Shown one piece after another: positions 1,995 to 17,639 of a DNA stretch of 34,956 nt. The position numbers and the translations under genes were made by a program. Position 1 is the stretch's first letter, and each line of letters starts with the position of its first letter. The DNA comes from a virus, in the IMG/VR virus record IMGVR_UViG_3300005613_000220, positions 1 through 34,956 of that record; one strand, 5' to 3'. The notes under the pieces are model-generated. The model was not told where the DNA came from and made no database searches. It was given only the letters and a program-made list of their open reading frames with translations.

Positions 1995-4064
1995 CTACAT
2001 ACTATTAGCATCTTGCACAGTTGCCCCTTGATCAAGACTTCCCTCCAACATAGAAGGGTTGATAGTAGGGGCCATATCGACATTGTTTTGAGATGTCTTG
2101 TTTTGAAGCAACTCTGCAAGTGCCAATAGTTTTTGTATCTGTTGAATATCAATATCATCAATCTCTTGAAGAGTCTTTACCATATTTAGCATGCCCTGCG
2201 TACGATCTTTTTCAGCTTCTGCTTTGCGTTCTGTAGCTAAAGCTCTATTTTCTTCAATTCTACTTACGCGCTCCAGACCTAATCCAGTATCGGCCTTAGC
2301 CCTTGCATTTGCTAGATTTGTTCTTGCTTCTTGCTCTTTGATTGTTGATTGGAGTTGCATTTGCTCTGCTTGTGCTTGTTGTTCATTTGAATTCTGAATC
2401 GAGTCGATGAGTTCTTTTTTGTTCTGAATCGTAGCTGCTTGAATAATGACATCATCAGGGATTGGAACTCCAATCTCTTTAAGGTGCAATAACTGTGCAA
2501 ATTGGAGCTGCCTTTGCGTAGTCGTATTAAGCCCTTCTTCAATAGCAGCGTCATATTTTCCAAATGCTTTATTATAAAACTGTGGAGTTGGCTCATCTTC
2601 TATAATCCTTTTAACCTTACCAGGACTAAAGTTTGACTGTATAACATCAATCATCAACTTACCAAGAAGCTGCTGCGACATATCAAGTTGATCAAATAAA
2701 TTTTGTAGAGTTGTTAGTCCAGCCCCCTGCCTCAACATAGACAAAATTCCAGCCTTATCATCAGTAGCGGAGCCTAGAAGCTCTTCATTTACACCTGAAA
2801 TTTCTTGAATCTCTTGTCCTAAAATCTGGGACAATTGGAAAAAAGACTGTGGTATATCTTGCGATGGTATTGGTTGAATATCTGTCATCTGGGCAGTTTG
2901 CTTGAGCAATATAGTTTGACCCTGACCTACCTTAAACAAATCTCGCGCATCAACAGGAGCATCTTCTTTGGCAATCCAACCAGTTGTAGCTTTAGACTCA
3001 GCAATATCTAACTCAATAACCTTTCTTCGATTATATAGATATTGAGAATCACGCAAACCTCTAACTATTCCTTGAATACGCATAGAATAATCAGACATTT
3101 GTGGATTATAATATCCAAAAACAGGCACAAATGGATAACGGTCTGTACCAAGAGTGTTTTTACCGTCGTAGTAAACTTTTCCGTCTACAACAATTGCCAT
3201 CTTTACAGTTGGAACTTCTTGATCAGCAACTGTAACTTGAGGATAAATTCGTAGATACTCCTTAAGAGTGTCTTCTTCTCCAGACCATTCCATAGTTTCA
3301 CCAGTCTCAGAGTCGACTAGCATTTGCTGATTGCGATAATCTTTATAGTAAAATTCATCATAAGCTAAAAGATCATTCCTGCTAATATCATAGTTTTCTG
3401 GCATAAAAGTAAACTTGCCATCCTTATTTCCCATATTGCCAGAAGCAAGAAGTTCTTCTTTGTAATCTGGCAAAAGTGACAATATGTCGCGTTTGCTTAA
3501 ATATGAACGCTTCCAAAGAGCTCTACAGTCAGATAAATCTTTCTTACGGAAATATGGATCAATTAGAAAAGAATTATACGAACAATTGTCTACCTTTATA
3601 TTTCCAGAAACTGGGTCACTTCTATAATCAACCCAAACTTGAAGAAGATTCAACCCAGTAACAATAGCACCATGAAATGACTCTGAAATTGTATGCAGAA
3701 CATTCTCTTGTTGGTTACACCAAGATAAAACTTTTGAAAACTGATCAGATGTAACTTCATCAGCATTTTCTACAGGTACAACAATTGTAGATTTCCTATT
3801 TCTTCTCTGATAACCGGAAACCATATTAACGATGCGTTTTATTCTATTAAAATTGAAATTTCTATATCGATCTTTAATATTGGAGCCATAAAGCTCAGAA
3901 AAGACTTGCTGATCCCCTGCCTCAAACCTAGTATCAATATCAGCCTCAGCCCAAAAAGATTGATTTATTGACATACTATCACGATAAAAGTCTTCCATGC
4001 GTTTTTGTATATCAACATCCTTCTGATCAAAAAACGCTCCACCTTTTTTTGGAAATAGCGCCAT
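1995..4064 (-). CDS. Portal protein, P22-like
   Basis: This 689-aa protein is the dodecameric portal through which DNA enters and leaves the capsid. Family traits visible include an N-terminal region with RIKRIVNMVSGYQRRNRKS and a central stem/clip region. The C-terminal roughly 130 residues are rich in Q, A, E and K (NEQQAQAEQMQLQ onward) and predicted helical, as expected for the helical barrel of P22-type portals. The length is close to P22 gp1. The frame extends 17 codons upstream, but the start at 4064 follows AAGGGGG with good spacing and gives MALFPKKGG, so I use it. It begins the head gene run and is preceded by a terminator (4155-4192), so it needs its own promoter or read-through. 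Confidence 0.85.
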   Translation of the reverse strand: MALFPKKGGAFFDQKDVDIQKRMEDFYRDSMSINQSFWAEADIDTRFEAGDQQVFSELYGSNIKDRYRNFNFNRIKRIVNMVSGYQRRNRKSTIVVPVENADEVTSDQFSKVLSWCNQQENVLHTISESFHGAIVTGLNLLQVWVDYRSDPVSGNIKVDNCSYNSFLIDPYFRKKDLSDCRALWKRSYLSKRDILSLLPDYKEELLASGNMGNKDGKFTFMPENYDISRNDLLAYDEFYYKDYRNQQMLVDSETGETMEWSGEEDTLKEYLRIYPQVTVADQEVPTVKMAIVVDGKVYYDGKNTLGTDRYPFVPVFGYYNPQMSDYSMRIQGIVRGLRDSQYLYNRRKVIELDIAESKATTGWIAKEDAPVDARDLFKVGQGQTILLKQTAQMTDIQPIPSQDIPQSFFQLSQILGQEIQEISGVNEELLGSATDDKAGILSMLRQGAGLTTLQNLFDQLDMSQQLLGKLMIDVIQSNFSPGKVKRIIEDEPTPQFYNKAFGKYDAAIEEGLNTTTQRQLQFAQLLHLKEIGVPIPDDVIIQAATIQNKKELIDSIQNSNEQQAQAEQMQLQSTIKEQEARTNLANARAKADTGLGLERVSRIEENRALATERKAEAEKDRTQGMLNMVKTLQEIDDIDIQQIQKLLALAELLQNKTSQNNVDMAPTINPSMLEGSLDQGATVQDANSM

Positions 4065-4154
4065 AGTATTCCCCCTTTTTTGGGACAAAGTAATTTCAAT
4101 TATTGCATAAGACAATGACAGTCTATCAAACTTTTAAAGAAGTATGACAACAAA

Positions 4155-5654: not shown

Positions 5655-5999
5655 CTAAAAAAGGTCTTCAAACTTTTTATACTTTAAAGAATCTAAAATC
5701 GCTCTCTCTTCCATCCACTTTTCTTGATCCCTCTCAAAGCGGCCACGAAACTTACCATTTCTTCTGTTCTCTTCAGATGTTTTTTTAAATCTTCTTTTTT
5801 TTTCCCGCTGAGAGCATAAAAGACAGGCAGCTCTTTTCATATTTAGAAGTTTTAGTATCTCTATAGCAGTAATGCTTCCGCAATCACACTTGCATAGAAA
5901 GTATCTCTTCTTTCTATTTGGCCGATCGTCTATCGGAACTTCGCTGATTACCTCAAGAGATCCAAAACGGTATCCTTGCCTGAAATTGTGAATTTGCAT
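5655..5999 (-). CDS. Cys-rich DNA-binding-like protein, homing-endonuclease related
   Basis: This 114-aa protein starts 9 bases after the terminase stop behind AAGGA, so it is the next gene in that operon. Residues 8-62 have the pattern seen in the DNA-binding part of many phage HNH/AP2-type homing endonucleases: GYRFGSLEVI, then CKCDCGS, then CLLC, a likely zinc-binding cluster. Residues 63-100 are very basic, and the C-terminus is charged and helical. No His-Asn-His catalytic set is visible, so cleavage is unlikely. It could be the DNA-binding remnant of a homing endonuclease, interesting beside an intein without its own endonuclease, or a small regulator. The family match is from pattern memory. 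Confidence 0.6.
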   Translation of the reverse strand: MQIHNFRQGYRFGSLEVISEVPIDDRPNRKKRYFLCKCDCGSITAIEILKLLNMKRAACLLCSQREKKRRFKKTSEENRRNGKFRGRFERDQEKWMEERAILDSLKYKKFEDLF

Positions 6000-6007
6000 A
6001 ATAATCC

Positions 6008-7837
6008 TTACCTAAAAAATGGGGGAAGATTGGATTGTTTGCCGTGATGAGCCTCATGTCTTAGTTGAGCCAGGTCATCTGGAGTCATGCCAATACGGAG
6101 CTTCGGAAGGTGAATCGCTAAGTAGCGTAAACTGTCACAAGCATGGCTATGTGAATCATGAAGAGGAGTGGTCTTATAAATCTTTTTCTTACTGTCATAC
6201 TCTTGTCTATAGCTTTCAATAGACTTGATTAAACTCTTGCACTTCTTTTCATCAAACCACATTCGAGGAAGAGTAGAACGAACCGCTTCAATGCCATCCA
6301 TTAAAGAAAGTTTATCGGCAACGTCGAAAGTAACGCCTAGCTGACGCGCCTTCTCCCAGCGAGTGACGCCAGAGGAGAATTCACGATTGCGAATATCATG
6401 AGGACCCACATGGCGACCATAAGTGTAAGGTTTTCCATTAAGCATATTGATGTAATGTTCAAGACCTTCTTTATTCTTCTCATAGTAGTCTATAACTCTA
6501 ATTGTTTGACCTACACACTGACTGAATACTATAGCTGTACTATCTCGAACACCGATGTCCCAACTTGTATTCACAAGATACTGCGGCTCCCATGGAACAA
6601 TTCCTATTTGTCCATTTAGTCGTAATCGGTCCATATACTTAGAGTAGTACGAACCCTCAACACCTTGCAGAAATGAACAAAAATATTCTTGTTGCTGCAG
6701 ATCCTCAGACATCTCTCCAAGCTCACGTTCCTTCAAGATCGTATCCATAGAGATGTGCTTAGTGTCATCTACAGTTAAATGTGAAACGAACCAGTCGTCT
6801 GGGTTCTGTAGAGCTGTATTATACATTTCAAATAGAAAATTTTTTCCTCTTGGGGTGCTCACAATTAACAACTTGCCATCATTTGCAGATAAAATGGGGC
6901 GAACAAACTTATAAGCTTCCGGGTCTGAAAGAGCAAACTCACTAAATACAACCATATGAGGATTAGTTCCGATTAAGCTCGTGTCGTATGAGTCAGAACC
7001 AATGATTTGGAATAGCGAGCCATTCTTTAGTTTTATTCTCATGTACTGTTCATGCTTAGACTCTATAAGATCTTTGGGCATATAGTCTATAATACGAAAT
7101 CCATCATTATCTATTGCATCCCAAAGAATACGCCTACCAGAAGAAAAGGTTGGAAAGACATAATAAATAGTTTTTGCAGAACGAATAAGTTCTCTTATGC
7201 ATAAATTCCAGGCTGTGATGTCTTTTCCTGAATTGTGTACAACGTATCCATTTGCCACAAAGTTATGATGGCACTCTGTCTCAATATCATACAATTCTTC
7301 TGGCTCACTCTTAGTAACAATAAACTCATACTTTAAACAGGAACCGAGCTCTATATTTCCACAAACACCAGCGAGCTTGTCAGCATTTAATTCTTTGAGA
7401 AACCTTCTTGAATGTCTTAAAACTTTATATCTACCTTTTGCAAGAGACGAAGCCTTCTTCCATAGAACATCGCCTTCTACATTTACAACGGCAAATTTAT
7501 GATCTAACGAACAGATTATTGGATGTTGGACTCTTTCATTAGGAGCAACTGTTTCTATCTTTACAGTGTCCTTCTTACTTGTTTTCCACGCATTCTTTAC
7601 GATATCAGTTACAAATTTTTTACCATCCCAAGATAATATTTTGTCACCAACCTGTATGTCGCATAGATACTTAAATGAATCATCAGCCATCGTGATGCGT
7701 GTTGAACCAGATAAACAACGCCGTGGCCAGATAGCCATTACACGCTTGTAACCATCTTTCTCTATCGCATTAAAGATGCATTTTTGATAGTCCCGTGGAA
7801 CAAATGTATTTAGATTAATTGTTGCTTTTTTAGACAC
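6008..7837 (-). CDS. terL: Terminase large subunit interrupted by a mini-intein
   Basis: The ATP-driven DNA-packaging motor and nuclease. The 609-aa precursor should splice to a 447-aa enzyme, a usual TerL size. The P-loop is rebuilt by splicing: WPRR (residues 37-40) joins SGKD (203-206). The Walker B-like strand is MVVFSE (E300), and an STP coupling motif is at 327-329. The RNase-H-like nuclease shows three acidic sites: SWDIG (D427), PHD (D481) and HACDSLRY (D568). It begins with GTG behind AGGGG and no better start is nearby. It follows the small-membrane-protein genes by 58 bp and precedes the 114-aa gene. Without splicing the ATPase site would be split, so packaging should depend on the intein. 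Confidence 0.93.
   Translation of the reverse strand: MSKKATINLNTFVPRDYQKCIFNAIEKDGYKRVMAIWPRRCLSGSTRITMADDSFKYLCDIQVGDKILSWDGKKFVTDIVKNAWKTSKKDTVKIETVAPNERVQHPIICSLDHKFAVVNVEGDVLWKKASSLAKGRYKVLRHSRRFLKELNADKLAGVCGNIELGSCLKYEFIVTKSEPEELYDIETECHHNFVANGYVVHNSGKDITAWNLCIRELIRSAKTIYYVFPTFSSGRRILWDAIDNDGFRIIDYMPKDLIESKHEQYMRIKLKNGSLFQIIGSDSYDTSLIGTNPHMVVFSEFALSDPEAYKFVRPILSANDGKLLIVSTPRGKNFLFEMYNTALQNPDDWFVSHLTVDDTKHISMDTILKERELGEMSEDLQQQEYFCSFLQGVEGSYYSKYMDRLRLNGQIGIVPWEPQYLVNTSWDIGVRDSTAIVFSQCVGQTIRVIDYYEKNKEGLEHYINMLNGKPYTYGRHVGPHDIRNREFSSGVTRWEKARQLGVTFDVADKLSLMDGIEAVRSTLPRMWFDEKKCKSLIKSIESYRQEYDSKKKIYKTTPLHDSHSHACDSLRYLAIHLPKLRIGMTPDDLAQLRHEAHHGKQSNLPPFFR
7232..7717 (-). mobile_element. Mini-intein inside the TerL P-loop
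   Basis: Residues 41-202 of the terminase frame (162 aa) have intein signatures. The first residue is Cys41, followed by a block A-like SGSTRITMADD. A block B-like CSLDHKF has His113 in the usual TxxH position with Ser for Thr. The end is ELYDIETE then HHNFVANGYVVHN, with penultimate His201, final Asn202 and Ser203 as the first C-extein residue. These are the residues needed for standard class 1 splicing. At 162 aa there is no room for a homing endonuclease, so this is a mini-intein fixed in place or mobilised in trans. Removing it gives RR-SGKD, a proper terminase P-loop. Confidence 0.93.
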
Positions 7838-16343: not shown

Positions 16344-16979
16344 TTAACAGACTAAGTAGCCGCTAAAATAACACCAATCATTATATATAGAATATGTTTT
16401 TGTAGCAGCAGACACAGTATATGTTACATATGCCGTGTCAGATGCATCCATATCAACAACTGCACAAACATGAGGAGTACTTGAATATGGAGCCGCAGAT
16501 GGATGATTAATTCCATTTAAATAAGTTCTATTGCTCGTTTTAATCTTTAAAACTGAACTAGTATAAACATCATTAATATTTGAATACACGTTAACAGTTA
16601 GAAAATATCTTCCAGTTATTGGTGCAGTAAATGTACCAGTAGAAGTATTGAAGTCACTGTTTTGATCAAATATTTCAGAATTCCAAATAACTGTATATTC
16701 AGTACCATCGCCTGTAACATTGTAAACTATACTAGAAAGCTTAGTAGAAAATGCTGGTTGCAACTCAAGCCTACTAATCCCAGCATCATTCATTACAAAC
16801 GTATCATTGGTTCCTAAAGCTGAACCCTGAGAGACTCTAAACGAATCATCCGTATCATCAACACCAATACGAAACTCACTAGTACCATTTATGTCAAACT
16901 GCAAAGCAGAATCACCAGCAGTTCCTGGATCAATAACAAGATTTTCAGCTTTAGCGTTCATGCTATTGTTAGTAGCCAT
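16344..16979 (-). CDS. C1q-like receptor-binding protein, copy 2
   Basis: This 211-aa protein is the tandem paralogue of the next gene upstream. Residues 1-66 (SALQFDINGTSEFRIGVDDT, DDSFRVSQGSALGTNDTF) are nearly the same in both. The C-terminal part is a C1q/TNF-like domain (EIFDQNSDFN, FTAPITGRYFLTVNVY) that has diverged. It starts behind AGGAG, 10 bases after its paralogue. The conserved base and divergent head suggest that both attach to the same partner but bind different surfaces, which is an inference. Confidence 0.7.
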   Translation of the reverse strand: MATNNSMNAKAENLVIDPGTAGDSALQFDINGTSEFRIGVDDTDDSFRVSQGSALGTNDTFVMNDAGISRLELQPAFSTKLSSIVYNVTGDGTEYTVIWNSEIFDQNSDFNTSTGTFTAPITGRYFLTVNVYSNINDVYTSSVLKIKTSNRTYLNGINHPSAAPYSSTPHVCAVVDMDASDTAYVTYTVSAATKTYSIYNDWCYFSGYLVC

Positions 16980-16988
16980 ATAATTCTC

Positions 16989-17639
16989 CTAACAAGCTAA
17001 ATAACCACTAAACGCTGTTCTAGCTTCAACTCCAGATACACCTTCTAAATCAAGAGTGTCAGCACCTTCACCATAAGAACGAGCTTGTGGATATACTGTA
17101 TCTGCGGCATCCATATCAACTATAAATGTAAATTCTGTAAAAATATCTGAACTTGAAGCTTCACGAGAATAACCAGAAAAAGCAGACCTATTGCTAGCGA
17201 CAATCCATATAGTTACGTTCTCAACCGTAGTGCAATCTGAAAGATAAATCCTTGCAGATATAACATATCTACCTGTTACCGGAGCTGTAAATATACCTGT
17301 AGTATTATTGTAGTCTGAATTCTGATCAAATACCTCAGTATCACATACATATGAATATTTCGTGTTGTTTCCAGTGACGTTGTTCTGAGTTGTACTCAAC
17401 ACTGCTAAAAAAGCTGGTTGCAAAGGCATTGTTCTTTCACCAGCTGCTGTCATTATAAACGTATCATTAGTTCCTAAAGCTGAGCCCTGTGAAATTCTAA
17501 ATGAATCATCTGTATCATCAACACCAACACGGAACTCGCCAGTACCATTTATATCAAACTGTACAAAGCTATCCCCGGACGCACCGGGGTCTACAGTTAA
17601 ATCTTGAGTCTTTTTGTAAATTGAATTTTGTGTGGCCAT
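16989..17639 (-). CDS. C1q-like receptor-binding protein, copy 1
   Basis: 216 aa. The N-terminal part matches the 211-aa paralogue (FVQFDINGTGEFRVGVDDT, SFRISQGSALGTNDTF). The C1q-like domain includes EVFDQNSDYN and FTAPVTGRYVISARIY, while the last 80 residues differ strongly from the paralogue. Both proteins end in SGYL(V/A)C, so the final Cys is conserved and could matter for trimer or partner contacts. The ATG at 17639 follows AAGGG. Position among fibre genes supports a virion surface role. Confidence 0.7.
   Translation of the reverse strand: MATQNSIYKKTQDLTVDPGASGDSFVQFDINGTGEFRVGVDDTDDSFRISQGSALGTNDTFIMTAAGERTMPLQPAFLAVLSTTQNNVTGNNTKYSYVCDTEVFDQNSDYNNTTGIFTAPVTGRYVISARIYLSDCTTVENVTIWIVASNRSAFSGYSREASSSDIFTEFTFIVDMDAADTVYPQARSYGEGADTLDLEGVSGVEARTAFSGYLAC

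Follow-up and report, generated by a model that had tools for sequence, protein, structure and literature searches.

Inteins in the terminase large subunit of phages

In mycobacteriophages, Kelley et al. 2016 (PMC5050341) described inteins that interrupt the terminase large subunit (TerL) within its Walker A loop, and also discussed regulation. For some TerL inteins of that study, splicing and endonuclease activity were demonstrated, and the same work documents the preference of inteins for P-loops that a sequence-only reading of the DNA analysed here had put forward. The homing cycle of such elements, ending in the loss of the endonuclease, has been reviewed (PMC1654191).

The intein reported here lies, as do mycobacteriophage TerL1-a and TerL1-b, in the Walker A loop of TerL (PMC5050341), but the insertion points differ: TerL1-a is found between the invariant Lys and Thr and TerL1-b one residue off, whereas the present insert separates the second Arg from the Ser that precedes Gly-Lys. 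Furthermore, the TerL1-b and TerL1-c inteins that were tested have LAGLIDADG domains, which the present intein lacks. An endonuclease-free intein of ca. 137 aa occupies the equivalent P-loop position (GRR^TGKT) in the TerL of the Acinetobacter phage vB_AbaM_ME3 (KU935715). Yet this TerL and its intein are remote from ours (24% identity), and its first C-extein residue (+1) is Thr. The ME3 TerL (L109:1063-3345) is annotated only as large terminase subunit in a feature table that does not mention an intein. An endonuclease-free intein was also observed directly after TGK in the TerL of the Oceanotoga phage UFV02 (OR420712; L110:1243-3258), whose feature table mentions none either. The P-loop inteins of these two TerLs are apparently unannotated. 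Since TerL P-loop inteins have already been published, and an endonuclease-free one occurs in an isolated Acinetobacter phage, the view that the locus described below adds another member to a known group is well supported.

A terminase gene split at its P-loop

The window, i.e., the whole stretch of 34,956 nucleotides analysed (IMG/VR record IMGVR_UViG_3300005613_000220), contains on its minus strand an ORF with a GTG start, which is plausible given the AGGGG found 5 bases 5' of it. Its product was identified as TerL by a match to the PHROG "terminase large subunit" (phrog_2, 4e-23), and the gene is followed by a P22-type portal gene at 1995-4115. The features of the locus are as follows.

6008..7837, minus strand: TerL precursor gene, 609 aa (ORF; PHROG phrog_2; 58 TerL relatives)
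7718..7837, minus strand: N-extein, ending in ...MAIWPRR, the first half of the P-loop (alignment to intein-free PRR[A/S]GKD relatives)
7232..7717, minus strand: endonuclease-free intein assigned to class 1, 162 aa, C1 to N162 (Pfam Intein_splicing, TIGR01445/TIGR01443, AF2 model, VIA-align)
7328..7420, minus strand: poorly conserved linker, intein residues 100-130, place of LAGLIDADG in relatives (alignment; lowest pLDDT here)
6008..7231, minus strand: C-extein from S203-G-K-D, with the remaining ATPase domain and the nuclease domain (PHROG match and TerL relatives)

The precursor thus comprises an N-extein of 40 aa, an intein of 162 aa, and a C-extein of 407 aa. The insert corresponds to TerL residues 41-202 and is flanked by WPRR and SGKD, splitting the RR^SGKD of the P-loop; the limits proposed by the sequence-only reading were exact. 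Elsewhere in the window, the adjacent ORFs 16344-16979 and 16989-17639 (minus strand) both match PHROG 15750, a family of unknown function, and are likely a tandem duplication.

The splicing residues are in place (C41, S110-L-D-H113, D184, H201-N202, and S203 as +1), and intein positions C1, H73, D144, H161, and N162 are invariant among 29 aligned relatives. The +1 residue is Ser in inteins found at the same site, with L072 (Cys) as the sole exception. The SLDH peptide had been described as TxxH-like: its residues are present, but the motif is SxxH, Ser being what most members of the family have at this position (25 of 29 rows, with Thr in the other 4). The search with intein models that had been suggested as a check returned scores above the cut-offs for Pfam Intein_splicing (5e-12; 46.3 bits, cut-off 35.8) and for both NCBIfam end models, intein_Nterm (TIGR01445; 26.0 bits, cut-off 24.5) and intein_Cterm (TIGR01443; 22.4 bits, cut-off 15.6). 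Several hallmarks of class 1 inteins are combined here, including Cys1 in block A, the xxxH of block B, a VHN^S end with Ser at +1, the Hint fold in the AlphaFold2 model, and homologues that are empty at the exact point. Judged from its residues, the element is a class 1 intein because Cys occupies its first position. Between its splicing blocks, neither a LAGLIDADG, HNH, or GIY-YIG family match nor a LAGLIDADG block was detected, and the endonuclease in cis expected of a homing-competent intein is absent.

The AlphaFold2 model of the intein, computed with the 29 relatives as input, reached a pLDDT of 89.6 and was weakest around residues 105-130, which is the endonuclease position. Comparison by VIA-align with the Ssp DnaB mini-intein (1mi8) gave a Z score of 20.6 and an rmsd of 1.2 over 131 residues. 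The top nine PDB matches were all inteins (Z 19.7-20.6), the best including the inteins of Ssp DnaB, Mtu RecA, and Npu DnaB, with Z close to 20. The 1mi8 structure, an engineered mini-intein, shares the Hint splicing fold with the present element but comes from a different host protein and displays 23% identity. A model of the 609-aa precursor was moderate (pLDDT 74, pTM 0.49) and was left out of the argument. Protein families, predicted fold, empty sites, and relatives agree with the earlier claim of an endonuclease-free intein splitting the TerL P-loop, and the presence of an intein in this loop is confirmed by a match far beyond chance.

Inteins and empty sites among related terminases

A DNA pattern for NGYxVHN^[S/T/C]GKD, which by design is unable to return +1 Ala, retrieved 48 stretches. 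After removal of duplicates, 37 distinct TerLs with an intein at this site were retained, window included. In 25 of them the intein is full-length (331-375 aa), in 10 it lacks the endonuclease (128-162 aa), and in two it is decayed (279 and 340 aa). Besides the window, these are 36 TerLs, with 25 full-length, nine endonuclease-free, and two decayed inteins. By pattern search, LAGLIDADG block C was found in all full-length inteins (25/25) and block E in most; LAGLIDADG_3 scored above its cut-off in L105 and L081, and slightly under it in L002. The inteins of L002 and L105 share the insertion site of the window intein, have splicing domains 63% and 55% identical to it, and reside in closely related TerLs, but both keep an endonuclease of about 200 aa that the window intein lacks. 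L002 is the nearest TerL (76%), and its 361-aa intein has the LAGLIDADG blocks AEFIGYMSSDG and FFAAVISSDG. Since the nearest TerL carries the full-length form, the window intein is most readily understood as the same element stripped of its endonuclease. No close relative of the window's own mini-intein was found among these relatives. The L060 and L061 inteins are one synonymous and one non-synonymous codon apart, which is not enough for a dN/dS estimate.

Within the same TerL family, insertions with intein-like ends were also observed at four more points, before [ST]L[VM]GTN, TPRG, CSF, and xDALRY, the last of these in the nuclease domain. They occur in L031, L045, L046, L050, L052, L062, L067, L079, L086, L092, L093, L095, and L106, with seemingly three in a single TerL in L093 and L095.

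Empty sites were sought by a C-extein scan of IMG/VR that is independent of the junction state. Most of the 58 TerL relatives obtained run PRRAGKD or PRRSGKD uninterrupted, and 36 distinct intein-free TerLs were retained for the trees; a second extein-based scan yielded 68 clean empty sites and six inteins. Once the intein was excised in silico, the remaining 447 aa aligned end to end with intein-free TerLs (RR[A/S]GKD). Because relatives read through uninterrupted, the insertion can be assigned to one exact point, with the second Arg on one side and the P-loop Ser on the other. The empty site that was to be sought in close relatives was thus recovered in both sets, the 36 and the 68 intein-free TerLs all reading RR[A/S]GKD.

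In the extein-based sample, Ala was found at +1 in 58 of the 68 empty sites and Ser in 10, as compared with Ser in 6/6 inteins (Fisher p 4e-5, some rows being near-duplicates). Ala is unable to act as the +1 nucleophile in splicing, and +1-Ala alleles should therefore be closed to productive insertion. Two intein-free sequences, L129 and L130, show 37% divergence over a tract of ca. 155 nt with the insertion point at its middle (2900-3060 in each) versus ca. 3% across the remaining TerL gene, and have Ala versus Ser at +1. This tract possibly reflects conversion following cleavage of the site, or the gain of an intein together with its flanks and its later loss, but the pair is a single one among 13 close pairs, and these phages are also mosaic further upstream. 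A broader view would present RR^SGKD as an active arena, with arrivals, many endonuclease losses, mini-inteins persisting or being re-mobilised in trans by co-infecting full-length alleles, and +1-Ala alleles being resistant; as a whole, this scenario appears unlikely.

Loss of the endonuclease and descent of the intein

With high probability, the window element is an ordinary class 1 intein, splicing in cis, whose ancestor reached the P-loop with a LAGLIDADG endonuclease and later lost it by internal deletion. A mobile, LAGLIDADG-carrying intein would have entered the terminase P-loop, and an internal deletion would then have removed the endonuclease. The remaining element would persist because its precise loss is rare and an imprecise one would destroy an essential motor.

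In the tree of splicing domains, endonuclease-free forms are scattered, with nine changes, at least four of which are forced by well-supported branches. A single origin of all mini-inteins was rejected by constraining them to one clade (AU p 2.2e-5). Since they do not form one clade, the endonuclease was lost repeatedly. The mini-intein of L106 retains the block-C peptide HDPDLAEFLGY (p 2e-4). The linker peptide LNADKLAGVCG of the window was also considered as a scar of block C and discarded, its score against shuffles being not significant (p = 0.09).

The extein tree places the window in a well-supported subclade of five TerLs (window, L002, L003, L077, and L107), all intein-bearing and 4/5 endonuclease-free, whose sister group comprises full-length (L081, L105) and empty (L117-L120) TerLs. 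A single loss shared by the window, L003, L077, and L107 was not rejected (p 0.445), and the subclade may have seen one loss or several. The sequence-only reading had offered two routes for maintenance, vertical descent or mobilisation in trans. The first fits the window subclade, in which descent of the intein along the TerL tree was not rejected (AU p 0.45-0.59); the second is possible, LAGLIDADG alleles being present at the same site. As judged from the trees, the data are compatible with vertical descent being sufficient for this subclade, and mobilisation in trans may have occurred but would not be needed.

Outside this subclade, intein transfer is evident in two cases: the L092 intein groups with that of L073 (99/99) and its TerL with the empty L013 (97/94), and the L063 and L064 inteins group together (100/97) in TerLs just 43% identical. 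Full-length alleles are common at the site (25/37 distinct), and some mini-inteins, as in L092, reside in TerLs nearest to an empty one while the intein itself is nearest to a full-length form elsewhere. Both observations would suit a mini-intein that is still mobile, homing in trans by means of the LAGLIDADG endonuclease of a co-infecting full-length relative. However, a full-length intein that moved and then lost its endonuclease gives an identical pattern, and the window subclade fits vertical descent, making current mobility of the mini-intein quite improbable.

Across most ORFs of the window, a record that may be incomplete, family scans recognised no free-standing homing endonuclease; a RusA resolvase and one Zn-ribbon-like product were all that they yielded. 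The latter (ORF 5655-5999, minus strand, 114 aa), just downstream of TerL, displays CxC/CxxC motifs only. It matches residues 195-262 of PHROG 374, a family of HNH proteins, with the HNH motif itself absent, and has homologues downstream of TerL in L002 (54%) and, weakly, in the intein-free L008 and L010. It was rejected as a trans-acting HNH endonuclease for want of the motif and because its presence does not track the mini-intein. In a scan of genome contigs, a Methylococcaceae MAG contig proved to carry an intein-free TerL (57%), and an alphaproteobacterial MAG a remote one. As the bin to which a phage contig is assigned says little about its host, no host is claimed.

The splicing domain of mini or decayed inteins had more unique changes than that of the full-length partner in 9/11 comparisons, with pairs including L063/L064, L092/L073, L095/L062, and window/L002, and the strongest skew in L063 versus L064 (14:0). 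This is suggestive of faster evolution once the endonuclease is lost, in comparisons that share rows and for which some extein controls are also skewed.

Predicted splicing and its control

With its splicing residues intact and a Hint fold predicted, we infer that the intein splices, probably efficiently and without control. After translation, Cys1 would attack the Arg40-Cys41 bond in an N-S shift, Ser203 at +1 would accept the N-extein, and Asn162 would cyclise with the assistance of His161. Joining of the exteins as ...WPRR-SGKD... would then give a TerL of 447 aa with its P-loop re-formed.

It had also been proposed that splicing could time packaging, for example through redox state. More generally, the intein could be a conditional switch, redox or other, holding TerL back until packaging: the P-loop cannot work before splicing, other inteins such as that of M. 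smegmatis DnaB (PMC6195587) are known to splice conditionally, and such control was proposed for phage inteins (PMC5050341). The cysteine pattern of the aligned relatives gives no support to a redox switch. In the 29-row alignment, no second conserved Cys appears to lie at the active site, Cys19, Cys69, Cys119, and Cys149 being private or rare; apart from Cys1, only Cys127 is conserved, and it sits in the linker region adjoining the endonuclease site. Ser at +1 rules out a Cys1-Cys+1 disulfide, and intein-free relatives are common, so that a switch is not needed. A conditional switch is thus very unlikely. That the segment would be a normal, non-splicing TerL insertion or a splicing-dead intein is scarcely credible, as every splicing residue is intact, the extein ends rebuild the P-loop exactly, and a dead intein would mean a dead motor.

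Significance for the terminase family

Taken alone, the window provides one further endonuclease-free intein. Within a single phage gene family, however, the same insertion site is seen empty, with full-length or decaying inteins, and with endonuclease-free ones, the endonuclease losses being repeated and independent. The site allows tests of the homing cycle, and of the fate of the splicing domain after the loss of the endonuclease, and also offers the opportunity of testing Ala at +1 as a resistance allele.
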